Origin: a virus
Reading direction: 5' to 3' (one strand)
DNA length: 27,846 nt
Virus record (IMG/VR): IMGVR_UViG_3300036834_000144
Coordinates: 1-27,846 of that record
Below are positions 6,606 to 23,888 of the stretch, piece after piece (positions within the stretch are counted from its first letter, which is position 1; each line of letters begins with the position of its first letter). The position numbers and the translations under genes are program-made. The notes beneath the pieces were generated by a model. It ran no database searches, was not told the DNA's origin, and was given only the letters and a program-made list of their open reading frames with translations.

Positions 6606-9083
6606 CTACCTGGACGAACCGCTTCCCGCCGAGGCTTTGATCAGTTGACCGGCACCAGTCTGACCGGCGGCCGTGCCATACATGATCGCAATACGCGAGG
6701 TGGCGGTTCCTAGCGTGTGATTGACGTATTGTACCTGCATGACAGTGATGTTGATGTCAGGGTCAGTGACCATCTGGACGTTCCCGAATGACGCTCCAGG
6801 CAGAACACTGGTGTAATCATTCGGCGGCCTGGTGGTGACTACCAGTGCCGACCTGCTGCCGCCGAACCCGACCAGGTTCGCGTTGTTGCTCGGCATATTC
6901 GGTGCCGAGTAAACCTCGAACGTATCAACGGTAAGAACGAACGTGCTTTGCGGTGTCGTGCCTTCGGTGACAATCCGCGGTTGTTGATAAGCGGCGAAGG
7001 TTACCAATGTCGGGTCTTTGACGAGACTGCCGAAAGCTGTCGGCCACAGTAATAGCGTGCGGTTCCCAAGCCCCAGCGGTACACCACGCTGAGTCAGGGC
7101 AACTCCAATGTCGACTACCGTCGCTCGCGCGAAGTTGGCGGAAGCAACGATGGTGTTGTTGGTGAAGTTGGCATCCGTGAGCAGCGCATAAATTGCGTCT
7201 ACGATGTTCTTCGCCAGCGCGTAAGCACTAGCCGGCGCGAATTCATCGAAAAGCCTACGCATCGTCGATGCCAGGATGTTCTCGTTAAATGTGATGGGAA
7301 CGCCCTTGTGATTATTGAGAACCACAGGCACATCAGTTGTGAGAGCTGCAGCATCCGTCCAACCGCTCGCAGTACTGTAAGTCTGCACCGTTGGGACGGT
7401 GATGATCCTGGTCATTACCGTCTGGTTGAACGTGGCCGGTTGGTCGGAGAAATCCGATGTGAACCGGGTCAATGCCGGGAAGATGAATTTCAGCAATTCG
7501 AGTGTCCGTTGCGTGACGAGCGTTCCGGCCAGCGTACCGAGGTTAGCGTCCGTAACGTCCGCAGCCTGGATGGCGTCGTTGAGGATATTCATCCTGCATC
7601 CCTTAAGCCTGTCAGAATTGGGTTTCCCCTCTTTGAATTCCGCAGCGTAAATCGCGCCGAACTCGCTCGCGAATTGAGCCTTTTCCTGTGGCAAACTGGC
7701 TCTGGCCGAGCATGCCAGAACCTTTGCCAGCTTGGAGTAAACGCTGATCGGGTCATCGTTTACCACCGATGTCCGCGAGACATCGCTGCTGGTGATGCGT
7801 TCGCTTAAGCGGTCGCCTGAGCCTTGCATTTTGTTGATGACCTCGATGAACCGCGGATCCGCCGCGGCTTTCATGGCAAGGTCTTCCTGCGTCCTGATGT
7901 CCCTGGGCAAAATGGCGCCCCGTTTTACGGCAGCGCGAACCGCCGCATCCGCGTCCGCCTTGTTGCGCTTGCGGATGACTGAGGCTTGCTGGTCATTTTG
8001 CGCCTTGATTTCTCCAAGCTCCAGTTCCGCCGCGTTAGCGCGAATAGTAGCGTCTGTCGCTGCTAATCGTGATTCAATTACTTTGTCGTCAGCATTCTGT
8101 GCCGCGATTGCTCTGAGGCCTTCAGCCTCTTTTTCAAGCTCCTGATTTTTCGCTCGGAGCGCAGCGATCTCTTCTGGTGTCATTGTATTTGTCTCTCCAG
8201 TTTTTGGTTTCTTCGCTGGTTGCTCCAGCGCGGTGACGGGTGATCCGTCGTTTTTTGCCCACAAGGGCAAATCGTTAAAAGCGGGGTCGTTAACCAGGCC
8301 GCCCATGTTCGGGCCGGCCTCAACGCAGCAGACGACTCGCGCAGGATCTTTGCGCTTGTCGTCCACATGGAACACGGGCGAGAAAGCCCGAAAATCTTTT
8401 CCTTCCACGGCTCGCCGGCCGCTCGCAGTCCATTCGCCTTTGGCGACTACCCCGTCGTTCTCGCGCCAGGTGAAAGAGCTCGGCCAGAACGATGCCGGTC
8501 CGTCTTCATGGTTAAAATCGAAGTAAACGCGCTTGCCGGTGCGAGCGGTAATCTCCGCTCGTTGCTGTTCTATTTTTGCCGCTGCTTCGGTATTGATCAG
8601 GACCTTGATCGCACGGCCGATGCCGCCTGCTACCGGCCGGATGGAATGCAAACCTGCGGGAAGAAACGTGATCTCGTTCGTTGCAGTCGGCGAGATTGCG
8701 ATCGCTGCTCGGCACTGGACGGGCTGAGAATCTTCAAGATCGGCTAGGGTCTTGATTTCTTCGTGAGCTTTTGCGCTTGAGTCTTCGGAGACATCAATTC
8801 CGAACTTCTTGCAGGCCGCTCGGATTTTCGCTTTGACTTTGGCTAGGTCATCGGATGAATATTTAGACGCGTTATCATCCTGATTGATGTAACTCCAGGC
8901 AGCGCGAACGTGTTTCTCCGTGTCGACCGGATAACGTTTTTTCTTGTCGCTTTGGTAACCGGGATCGGCGTACTCAACATCGCCGTACGGTTTTTTGGAA
9001 TCATCGGCGCAGTAAAGCGCATCATGTGCGGTTTGTGTGCGTATCACGCCCCCAATTGGGTTAAAAAAATTTTGGTTCTTCAT
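6606..9083 (-). CDS. Fused head maturation protease, scaffold and major capsid protein
   Basis: 825 residues with four recognisable parts. Residues 1-~100 form a small module (ADPGYQSDKKKRYPVDT, KIRAACKKFGID). Residues ~110-290 resemble the Mu I-type protease with FDFNHEDGPASFW as likely active-site region. Residues ~300-420 are a charged coiled coil (EEIAALRAKNQELEKEAEGL) typical of scaffold. Residues ~420-825 are an HK97-fold-like major capsid protein (GVPITFNENILAST, VGFGGSRSALVV). In Mu, protease/scaffold and coat are separate genes. An in-frame ATG at 8183 (Met301, MTPEEIAAL) has a GGAGAG site 9 bases upstream, so a separate scaffold-capsid product of about 525 residues is likely, as in nested lambda C/Nu3. 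Confidence 0.88.
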   Translation of the reverse strand: MKNQNFFNPIGGVIRTQTAHDALYCADDSKKPYGDVEYADPGYQSDKKKRYPVDTEKHVRAAWSYINQDDNASKYSSDDLAKVKAKIRAACKKFGIDVSEDSSAKAHEEIKTLADLEDSQPVQCRAAIAISPTATNEITFLPAGLHSIRPVAGGIGRAIKVLINTEAAAKIEQQRAEITARTGKRVYFDFNHEDGPASFWPSSFTWRENDGVVAKGEWTASGRRAVEGKDFRAFSPVFHVDDKRKDPARVVCCVEAGPNMGGLVNDPAFNDLPLWAKNDGSPVTALEQPAKKPKTGETNTMTPEEIAALRAKNQELEKEAEGLRAIAAQNADDKVIESRLAATDATIRANAAELELGEIKAQNDQQASVIRKRNKADADAAVRAAVKRGAILPRDIRTQEDLAMKAAADPRFIEVINKMQGSGDRLSERITSSDVSRTSVVNDDPISVYSKLAKVLACSARASLPQEKAQFASEFGAIYAAEFKEGKPNSDRLKGCRMNILNDAIQAADVTDANLGTLAGTLVTQRTLELLKFIFPALTRFTSDFSDQPATFNQTVMTRIITVPTVQTYSTASGWTDAAALTTDVPVVLNNHKGVPITFNENILASTMRRLFDEFAPASAYALAKNIVDAIYALLTDANFTNNTIVASANFARATVVDIGVALTQRGVPLGLGNRTLLLWPTAFGSLVKDPTLVTFAAYQQPRIVTEGTTPQSTFVLTVDTFEVYSAPNMPSNNANLVGFGGSRSALVVTTRPPNDYTSVLPGASFGNVQMVTDPDINITVMQVQYVNHTLGTATSRIAIMYGTAAGQTGAGQLIKASAGSGSSR
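8181..8200 (-). promoter_or_regulatory. Internal ribosome binding site and in-frame start inside the capsid fusion gene
   Basis: On the minus strand GGAGAG lies 9 bases before an ATG (8183-8181) that is in frame with the protease-scaffold-capsid reading frame and falls exactly at the start of the coiled-coil scaffold part. The position at a domain border suggests a functional internal start rather than chance. Confidence 0.5.
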
Positions 9084-17778: not shown

Positions 17779-18070
17779 GACAGGTTCTGAATTTAAAAAG
17801 GCAAGAGCCATCATGGAAGGCAAGCCGGCAACGGAAATTCCCGACGGTGTTAAAGAAGCCCGAAGGTATCTCCAGAAAGCGGCCAACCTCTATAACCTGA
17901 CCGTTAAATGCGTCGACAAGGTCGTTGCGCCTAACGTCCCACCGATCGCGCAGACGGGGGAAATGTTTCGGGCGGCTGTAGGCACTCTTTTCATCGAGGC
18001 AGCCCGTGCCGGCTTTGTTCGACTGATGCCCGACAGACCCACCGAAAAAAAACAAGAGGAGTCGCCGTGA
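17762..18070 (+). CDS. Early protein of unknown function
   Basis: 102 residues, starting inside the 3' end of the SSB-like gene with a GGAGGA site a few bases before the ATG at 17762. Mostly helical (GVKEARRYLQKAANLYNLTV; MFRAAVGTLFIEAARAGFV) with a charged C-terminus (TEKKQEESP). It overlaps the next gene. No family recognised; conserved spacing within the operon supports it. Confidence 0.6.
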   Translation: MESPSETGSEFKKARAIMEGKPATEIPDGVKEARRYLQKAANLYNLTVKCVDKVVAPNVPPIAQTGEMFRAAVGTLFIEAARAGFVRLMPDRPTEKKQEESP

Positions 18071-18375
18071 AGGTTGAAACACCGGATCTCTTTGGAGAAG
18101 CTCACGCTCGCTGGAGTGATCCCGACACTTCAAAGGCCGCGGCAGAAGATCTGGCAGGCACGAAAGCAACCCGCTTGGAATACGTCGTGCTTGCCACTTT
18201 ACAAAACTTTCCACAGGGACTGACCATGCACGAAATCGTGAGATTCACAGGGCTTCTTTGGAATACAGTCAGTCCGCGCATTCGGCCATTGGTCCGAAAG
18301 GGTTTTGTCATTGATTCTGGTAAACGTCGCAAAGGTCCGACTGGCAAGTTCTGCATAGTCTGGATGGCAACATGA
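18067..18375 (+). CDS. Small winged-helix DNA-binding protein
   Basis: 102 residues, GTG start at 18067 with the SD-like GAGGAG seven bases upstream. N-terminus holds the DPDTSKAAAED motif common in small phage wHTH proteins. Then a winged helix: EYVVLATLQNFPQGLTMHEI, recognition helix LLWNTVSPRIRPLVRKG, wing FVIDSGKRRKGPTGKFCIVW. This matches a group of phage early proteins of unknown target, probably transcription regulators. Confidence 0.7.
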   Translation: MKVETPDLFGEAHARWSDPDTSKAAAEDLAGTKATRLEYVVLATLQNFPQGLTMHEIVRFTGLLWNTVSPRIRPLVRKGFVIDSGKRRKGPTGKFCIVWMAT

Positions 18376-18518: not shown

Positions 18519-18546
18519 ACAGTAAACAAACAACACGAAAGGTAAA

Positions 18547-19122
18547 ATGAAGTTAATTGAAGCACAGATAAAAGGTACTACGCCATTACTACAACATCGA
18601 TTTGAAGAAGGAGCCGAAGTGCCTTCTCCATCTCGTACGGTGCTGGTCAATCATGGAACTCCGCGTGAGCAAGCGGAGAAAGCGGTTTATCGAAACGAAC
18701 GCGGATTTTATTTTCCCGGTGCAGCGATTGCTCGCTTGCTCCGTGAAGCTGGCAGCGGTCATAAACTAAGAGGATCTCGTAAAAGCGCGAAATTCATCGT
18801 GCCGGCTGCTGTGCTGGTGCTGCTGGATGGAATTGATATCCTGAACGGTGACGGCAAATCACACGCTAAAGATTTTGAGGTTGATTCGCGGCCGGTAACC
18901 ATTCCGGCAACCAAGGGCAGAATCATGCGGCATCGTCCGCGATTTGATACATGGAGCGCGAAATTCACTCTCCGAATCAATGAAACGATCCTGCCTGTCG
19001 ATTTCATTAGTCAGTTGTTGACGGAGGGCGGTCAGCAAATCGGAATTGGCGATTATCGTCCACAGACTGGCGGTCCATTCGGAACATTCAACGTCACTTC
19101 ATGGCAGGAACAAAAATCATAA
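18547..19122 (+). CDS. RAMP/Cas7-fold-like protein of unknown function
   Basis: 191 residues, start supported by AAAGG six bases before the ATG. N-terminus is a strand of the type KLIEAQIKGTTPLLQHRF. Residues 54-68 read FYFPGAAIARLLREA, resembling the yi-PGSslkGalR element of RAMP/Cas7 proteins. Residues ~131-136 (PRFDTW) and 137-147 (SAKFTLRINET) begin the last beta-alpha-beta, ending in GIGDYRPQTGGPFGTFNV (165-182), like the glycine-rich loop of RAMPs. No CRISPR array or other cas gene is present. Similar stand-alone proteins occur in other phages (from memory, uncited). It ends at the edge of the GGCNN array, so it may bind that array or its RNA (hypothesis). Fold inference is moderate; function is unknown. 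Confidence 0.6.
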   Translation: MKLIEAQIKGTTPLLQHRFEEGAEVPSPSRTVLVNHGTPREQAEKAVYRNERGFYFPGAAIARLLREAGSGHKLRGSRKSAKFIVPAAVLVLLDGIDILNGDGKSHAKDFEVDSRPVTIPATKGRIMRHRPRFDTWSAKFTLRINETILPVDFISQLLTEGGQQIGIGDYRPQTGGPFGTFNVTSWQEQKS

Positions 19123-19129
19123 CAAACAC

Positions 19130-19634
19130 GGCAAGGCTGGGCTATGCGCGGCTAGGCGTGGTCGGGCCGGGCATTGCCTGGCTAGGCCGGGCTTGGCAGG
19201 GCGAGGCGTGGCGAGTCCAGGCGCGGTCAGGCGGGGTTAGGCTGCGCTGGGCAGGGCTATGCGGGGCTCGGTCAGGCATGGCATGGCGGGGCGGTGCTAG
19301 GCAAGGCATGGCAACGCTGGGTCCGGCCCGGCAAGGCGCGGCGACGCTTGGCTTGGCGTGGCCTGGTGGGGAAAGGCAACGCACGGCATGGTTTTTTTTA
19401 AACACAAAATTTTCGCGGCGCGGCAGTGTCGGGCTTGGTATGGCGCGGCGAGGCAAGGCGCGACCTGGCGAGGCCGGGTTTGGCGAGGCATGGCAACGCG
19501 CGGTGTGGCGCGGCCTGGCGAGCCATGGCGGGGCAACCCTCGGCCCGGCCAAGTGTGGCATGGCACGGCTGGGCAGGCCTGGGCGCTGCGCGGCAGGGCT
19601 GGGCGGCCGTGGTTGGGCGCGGCAACGCGAGGCT
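19130..19634 (+). repeat. GGCNN pentamer array in two blocks around an A/T island
   Basis: About 97 consecutive 5-base units. Left block 19130-19391: 53 units in one unbroken register (GGC always begins at multiples of 5); by eye 36 are exact GGC and all others differ by one base, while the last two positions of each unit vary freely. Then a 22-bp island (19392-19413) of only A, T and one C-bearing step. Right block 19417-19634: about 40 units in a second register plus four units shifted by -1 near 19616. Period 5 is not a multiple of 3, so it is not a coding repeat. Long open frames here (both strands) are a side effect: GGCNN allows only TAG stops. No known repeat class is recognised. Confidence 0.9.
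19392..19413. other. 22-bp A/T island inside the pentamer array
   Basis: Eight T, three A, CAC, four A and four T in order (T-run, AAACAC, then AAAATTTT). It is the only break in composition within 500 GC-rich bases and divides the array in two. It contains the self-complementary AAAATTTT. It could be a melting site, a promoter-like or terminator-like element, or a spacer. Confidence 0.6.
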
Positions 19635-19653
19635 AATTTAAGTAACCAATAAC

Positions 19654-19884
19654 ATGGACCAGTCAGAACGCAAACATCGCCAGCGCATGATTGAACATGC
19701 CAAGAGCTATAATGACGCCCCCAGCTACGACTGCCCCATCTGCGGCGAGGGCGTTCGGGTGCCGACTCATGTTCATGGCGGCCTGGTCCGCTGCCCAAAC
19801 TGCCGAGCTCGGCTGCGAGTGGAGCGTGATGCGCAGTTTCAAGGTGGCATGTGGCATGACCTTTCAAGGCTGATACCAACATGA
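19654..19884 (+). CDS. Small zinc-ribbon protein
   Basis: 76 residues, first gene after the array. A two-knuckle zinc ribbon is visible: Cys27-x2-Cys30 (CPICGEG) and Cys47-x2-Cys50 (CPNCRARL), with an HVHGG segment between. The N-terminus is basic and helical (SERKHRQRMIEHAKSYN). Such ribbons bind nucleic acid or protein. A weak start context, no clear Shine-Dalgarno. Confidence 0.65.
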   Translation: MDQSERKHRQRMIEHAKSYNDAPSYDCPICGEGVRVPTHVHGGLVRCPNCRARLRVERDAQFQGGMWHDLSRLIPT

Positions 19885-23492: not shown

Positions 23493-23813
23493 CTAAGGGT
23501 TAAGGAGCAGTCGGCAATGGGGGCAGAAGCGGGGGCGTTTGCGATAGGAGCGAAAGTAGGCGGCACGAGAGGTGGGTGGTTGCCTGCCGCCGCGGGAGTC
23601 CGGTTCCCTTACATGCTCCGGTCTTCGGGCTGATGCCTCTCGCGCTTCGCAGCCGATACTGTCATTCACGCTTGGCGAGTGGTCCCGCGGCGTATGATTG
23701 GACTCGGCAGCGTCGGCCGGCACAGGCACGGCAGGCAAATTTGTGTGTGGAGAGGAGAGGGAACGGCCGGTGCGCTGTTGGAATTCGCGGAGAGAATCTT
23801 CGGTTTCGATCAT
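23493..23813 (-). CDS. Small protein with C-terminal CPHC motif
   Basis: About 106 residues from the ATG at 23813 (MIETEDSLREFQQRTGRSLS); a TTG at 23822 is an alternative. The middle is disordered and rich in Ser, Pro, Arg. The C-terminus (RAAYFRSYRKRPRFCPHCRL) resembles short YFR-YRK...CPxC tails in phage small proteins, possibly half of a zinc site shared across a dimer. Its start sits in the four-copy 12-bp repeat. Function unknown. Confidence 0.5.
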   Translation of the reverse strand: MIETEDSLREFQQRTGRSLSSPHTNLPAVPVPADAAESNHTPRDHSPSVNDSIGCEAREASARRPEHVREPDSRGGRQPPTSRAAYFRSYRKRPRFCPHCRLLLNP

Positions 23814-23880
23814 GTAGCGCAACAGTGTAGCGCAACAGAATTGTTGTGCAACACATGTAGCGCAACAATGTAGCGCAACA
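23813..23880. repeat. Four exact 12-bp repeats, operator-like
   Basis: TGTAGCGCAACA occurs at 23813, 23826, 23856 and 23869: two pairs, each at 13-bp spacing, with a 30-bp step between pairs. Between the pairs (23840-23852) lies the palindromic TTGTTGTGCAACA, which resembles one half of the repeat. The first copy overlaps the ATG of the minus-strand gene. This is where an autoregulator would bind; the repeats could also be recombination or uptake-like sites. Confidence 0.75.
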
Positions 23881-23888
23881 GGTGTATT

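Follow-up and report, generated by a model that had tools for sequence, protein, structure and literature searches.

A long GGCNN pentamer array in a temperate phage contig as the very probable guide array of a VIPR system

Introduction

The window analyzed here, 27,846 nucleotides of the IMG/VR record IMGVR_UViG_3300036834_000144, contains a long array of GGCNN pentamers, which raises the question of what such a repeat is and what might read it. A first-pass annotation made from the letters alone treated it as a possibly recurring but unnamed element. A name is offered by a 2026 preprint on VIPR (Viral Interference Programmable Repeat), reported from phage SUSP1 and a Pseudomonas fulva prophage, in which a RAMP protein, Vipr, is combined with vrRNAs of alternating GGY and NN (PMC13142463). 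As described in its main text, NN pairs with dsDNA, one target base, usually the codon wobble base, is skipped per unit, and GGY serves as a scaffold (PMC13142463). Vipr is further characterized by an RRM/RAMP fold with a glycine-rich loop, and the vrRNA by a structured, invariant 3' tail. Most reported VIPR targets are competing phages, satellites, or prophages; repression was demonstrated in E. coli, and vrRNA expression and Vipr binding are reported for relatives of the system considered here (PMC13142463). The preprint distinguishes seven types. Guides in its main text have 9-16 repeats, a range descriptive of the types studied and not defining; it also reports staggered arrays and presents an accessory gene, vap, as typical of VIPR, though not universal (PMC13142463). 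No VIPR literature beyond this preprint was found. Below, the repeat is argued to be almost certainly the guide array of a VIPR system, and the explanation as a whole, namely a phage-borne VIPR with long vrRNA guides, a Vipr filament on dsDNA, and no vap, is assigned a probability of roughly 0.9, its long-guide part about even odds.

Layout of the array

The array was divided as follows.

19130..19394, + strand: block 1 of the array, 53 GGCNN units in one register; candidate for a single long vrRNA
19395..19416, + strand: spacer, 22 nt, T/A-rich, non-repeat, TTTTTAAACACAAAATTTTCGC; candidate vrRNA 3' tail
19417..19606, + strand: array block 2, 38 in-register GGCNN units in a phase different from that of block 1; candidate second vrRNA
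19607..19637, + strand: degenerate stretch closing block 2, with a one-base slip of register; candidate hairpin of a 3' tail

Read in 5-base steps, block 1 has exact GGC in 36 of its 53 units and GGY in 43, and all 53 lie within one base of GGC; there are no indels in its 265 bases, and GGC occurs in none of the other four phases. These counts bear out the first-pass annotation, which had described 36 exact units, the rest one base off, and no insertion or deletion. Its description of a strict 5-nt register of about 97 units holds for the unit total (both blocks plus the degenerate end) and for the register within block 1, but not across the whole span: the 22-nt spacer and a change of phase separate the blocks, and past 19606 one 4-base step is followed by five unit-like words until about 19637. 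In block 2, 27 of 38 units have exact GGC. The NN positions of block 1 use all 16 dinucleotides, and those of block 2 use 15. Departures from consensus in block 1 fall mainly on the first G (15%, versus 2% for the second G), and first-G tolerance is also seen, at 21-24%, in locus L106, whose Vipr is 31-32% identical.

In a scoring scan, the segment scores of the blocks are 86 and 58, respectively, and chance is excluded because 118 control loci collected for unrelated reasons (2.7 Mb, both strands) reach a maximum of only 9.5. Within the window, the pattern matches 34 times on the forward strand, never on the reverse, and never with a reversed control pattern. The spacer TTTTTAAACACAAAATTTTCGC folds weakly. 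Arrays of locus L056 finish like block 1, with GGCATGG and a T-tract after it, and the last units of block 1 may belong to a 3' tail. A similar array end is present in the closest relative, L265.

Two structural candidates were rejected. Folding of block 1 into a long hairpin or palindrome, with an MFE near -151 to -154, has a z of about +0.5 against unit shuffles and reflects composition only, and the folding energy of the tail hairpins in the window is not below that of unit-shuffled controls. Rfam gave no match, hence no listed hammerhead, and no sigma-70-type promoter or terminator was found by consensus. Elsewhere in the window (23813-23886) there is a separate tandem repeat with a period of 13 nt and 5.3 copies, TGTAGCGCAACAG.

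The adjacent vipr gene

The gene next to the array, overlooked in the first-pass annotation, ends 7 nt upstream of it.

18547..19122, + strand: vipr, 191-aa RAMP-fold protein with a C-terminal glycine-rich loop, GGPFGTF

The 191-aa protein has no Pfam match and is assigned to PHROG 4652, the function of which is annotated as unknown. When it was compared with the PDB using phmmer, the sole matching chain was 36pp_D, "SUSP1 Vipr protein" (E=1.8e-6); when 20 homologues were combined into a profile, the match to this chain spanned the full length (E=3.7e-31). With tblastn, the protein aligned to phage SUSP1 at 28486-29061 with 25% identity over 98%. The AF2 model has a pLDDT of 90.2, and its best Foldseek chains are Csm3/Cas7-type subunits, i.e., RAMPs, with E down to 2.5e-7. 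The C-terminal G-rich motif is conserved among Vipr homologues. On the strength of homology and the predicted fold, the product of 18547-19122 is thus identified as a Vipr protein.

Association of vipr and the array in environmental phages

The partnership of gene and array was approached from both sides. An array-only search of IMG/VR with seven exact GGCNN units recovered at least 120 loci, and Vipr homologues (E<0.02, with the single window protein as query) were present in about 70 of the 120 matches listed. A Vipr-only search, in which IMG/VR was scanned by alignment, yielded 80 nearest homologues with 51-74% identity, all 80 of which have a GGYNN array beside vipr. Because each search recovers the partner, the association is two-way, and it indicates that VIPR is common among environmental phages. 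The recurrence in phage assemblies that the first-pass annotation had suggested is therefore borne out by the GGCNN scan, which finds the same arrays in many independent viral contigs; the label "unnamed" does not hold, as such arrays are those reported for VIPR (PMC13142463).

A co-conserved accessory gene was also sought. Apart from vipr itself, every neighbor gene is confined to 8 or fewer of the 47 loci inspected, a count that leaves out antisense frames of vipr and frames spanning the array; the clade therefore has no common vap gene. Within the window, no vap was found in the cassette, where vipr is the sole gene.

The phage, its host, and the cassette site

The contig encodes terminase, portal, head protease, capsid, tail, and integrase genes, a content by which it is identified as a temperate tailed phage. 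A single 825-aa frame (6606-9083) joins the head maturation protease and the major capsid protein. Among bacterial genomes, the nearest relatives of its terminase come mostly from Verrucomicrobiota MAGs, and the host accordingly appears to belong to Verrucomicrobiota. Three further features define the site.

18067..18375, + strand: winged-helix (MarR-like) gene, flank
18519..19643, + strand: VIPR cassette, vipr plus array; the content of this site differs in related phages
19654..19884, + strand: zinc-ribbon-like small protein, flank

The sister phage G002 aligns at about 90% identity as far as 18437 and again from 19644, with other genes between, and in the more distant phage G001 the site is nearly empty; a search of three related phages turned up neither Vipr nor the array. 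Because G002 carries other genes at this position and G001 almost none, VIPR is an exchangeable cassette, as would be expected of an inter-phage weapon. Among other products, the site in G002 (L138 15434-17093) encodes one of roughly 350 aa that includes a segment resembling a helix-turn-helix, and the G002 genes may represent alternative cargo occupying one hot spot. The flanking genes do not belong to the system: that at 18067..18375 is not a vap, since the sister phage without VIPR has it too, and that at 19654..19884 lies outside the cassette, since it is likewise present in phages without VIPR.

Block length and guide boundaries

Of the 80 Vipr loci, 45 contain an in-register run of 20 units or more, 26 one of 30 or more, and 7 one of 50 or more, the longest being 151 units (L281). 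The extreme in-register arrays observed are L281 3663-4417 (151 units), L017 6311-7010 (140), and L046 8059-8933 (175). Many relatives have multiple blocks with repeated spacers between them, some of which form hairpins (L337, L278). Repeated tails are clear in L278, L287/L289, and L337; the window offers a T/A-rich spacer and, at the end of block 2, a possible hairpin that does not stand above shuffles. In L278 (3664-4162), the inter-block tails keep the outer arms CATCC...GGGTG while the inner stem varies, which looks like compensatory change. Loci L080, L088, L120, and L122 consist of many blocks of 7-12 units with a one-base shift (a 4-base unit) at the joins, probably the "staggered" architecture of the preprint (PMC13142463).

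Since block ends are marked by tails at other loci and 19130-19394 runs on without one, the simplest reading is one guide per block, i.e., guides of 53 and about 38 units with targets of about 159 and 114 bp, and we give this reading roughly even odds. Its strongest competitor, with a probability somewhat short of one half, holds that long blocks are in-phase fusions of several vrRNAs, which are processed or used as overlapping guides of 9-16 units, "staggered" without register shifts. Guides of 9-16 units and staggered arrays are indeed those of the preprint's main text (PMC13142463), and GGCAACGC is repeated inside the window blocks. Fusion itself can be traced between two relatives: the 28-unit block of L287 (3800-3939) begins with the opening 12 units of one L289 block and continues in register with the last 16 of the next, the tail that separates the 13- and 20-unit blocks of L289 (3790-4012) having been lost. 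This pair likely records guide recombination, a route by which arrays lengthen or recombine. Against the use of several guides within a block, 19130-19394 contains no internal tail, spacer, or register shift, spacers or tails delimit blocks at other loci of the clade, and the blocks fold no more strongly than shuffled arrays do. Unit strings are also duplicated internally in L086 and L090.

The one-guide reading can be extended, tentatively and with the odds against it, to a VIPR subtype in which a single guide of 50-150 pentamers and a very long Vipr filament would step along 150-450 bp of a target gene, passing over the wobble bases, without an accessory protein, new guides arising by in-register fusion of older arrays.

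Selection on the repeat unit

Across 125 homologous non-identical array pairs of the clade (1397 units; the pairs are not independent, and the arrays were chosen by GGY score), differences per unit position number 35 at G1, 3 at G2, 55 at Y3, 167 at N4, and 197 at N5. The second G is thus almost invariant and the first G looser, in line, as to register and GG, with the earlier suggestion that selection maintains register and GGC and leaves NN free.

A decaying or non-functional array, with the 20-30% of off-consensus units reflecting relaxed selection, is improbable. Units without exact GGC (17/53 in block 1 and 11/38 in block 2) and the loss of register at the end of block 2 would suit such decay, but 265 bases have passed without an indel, the vipr ORF is intact, departures in block 1 cluster at G1 instead of being spread, and L106, with its 31-32% identical Vipr, shows the same tolerance at G1.

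That the array encodes a low-complexity protein of the MARRGKARQG type is very unlikely: open frames do cross it, but the period is 5 and the codon 3, related arrays differ according to the 5-base register (in support of the first-pass annotation's view of a non-coding array), and no homologous protein is conserved across loci except spurious array ORFs. An artefact of assembly or sequencing, or plain microsatellite slippage, might be suspected of a low-complexity repeat in a metagenomic contig, but has a negligible probability given that block 1 holds all 16 NN dinucleotides, both flanks match the sister phage, and the same arrays adjoin vipr in many independent metagenomes.

NN composition best resembles codon positions 1-2, sense or antisense, in 243 of 331 arrays, and both window blocks favor the sense 1-2 reading (+2.6 bits for block 1 and +1.6 for block 2). 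This indirect comparison agrees with wobble skipping, weakly for any single array.

Search for targets

At skips of 0-3, targets in the phage itself, its relatives, and all collected loci (other than those collected by the array pattern itself) showed no excess over shuffles. In 286 genomes of a Verrucomicrobiota class, the decoded target profile of block 1 had no match and that of block 2 had 3 matches at E<=0.01, versus 2.9 expected. Matches of exact 8-unit target patterns in IMG/VR failed to extend. Array-decoded peptides matched Pfam, PHROGs, and ORFs at chance level, and weak TetR_N and HTH_17 matches among them were rejected on the same ground. No route led to a target; because environmental Verrucomicrobiota phages are thinly sampled, this null result says little.

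Proposed mechanism and significance

By analogy with the published relatives, the window member presumably acts as they do. The array would be transcribed from the + strand downstream of vipr into one or two long vrRNAs. One Vipr subunit would grip each GGY and keep it out of pairing, while each NN would pair with DNA and one target base, often a codon wobble base, would be skipped per unit. The resulting RNA-protein filament would bind along an extended dsDNA segment and so keep a competing phage, satellite, or prophage from being transcribed, presumably without a vap protein. The first-pass annotation had suggested reading by a protein polymer, a plausible idea now that RAMP-type Vipr subunits are reported to sit on guide RNA (PMC13142463).

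An anonymous low-complexity repeat is hereby tied to a newly reported RNA-guided system that has been proposed as a CRISPR ancestor. The clade extends the known size of guide tracts several-fold, and guide length, boundaries, and origin become directly testable.

Comparison with known systems

Like VIPR, TIGR-Tas and other tandem-repeat guide systems are compact and use tandem arrays for RNA-guided recognition of DNA. TIGR-Tas uses another protein family and dual-spacer guides. Class 1 CRISPR-Cas backbones (Csm3/Cas7 RAMPs) share the RAMP fold and supply the best Foldseek matches, and there, too, repeated subunits on the guide RNA periodically disrupt pairing, as stated in the preprint (PMC13142463). 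However, the system here has a single small protein gene and pentamers without long repeats or a repeat-spacer array, as the first-pass annotation had recognized in finding no CRISPR layout, and the VIPR unit is a 5-nt RNA with two readable bases and no contiguous pairing.

Closest is VIPR as described in the preprint's main text (PMC13142463): a Vipr RAMP protein of about 20 kDa lies beside GGY/NN pentamer arrays, the system is phage-borne, NN is hypervariable, and blocks in several relatives from the clade end in a tail. The window differs in its blocks of 53 and 38 in-register units versus the published 9-16 (PMC13142463), in having no vap in the cassette and none conserved in the clade, in tolerating change at the first G, and in a Vipr only 25% identical to that of SUSP1. 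The kind is known; with their great length and lack of vap, the arrays here appear to represent a variant beyond the preprint's main text.
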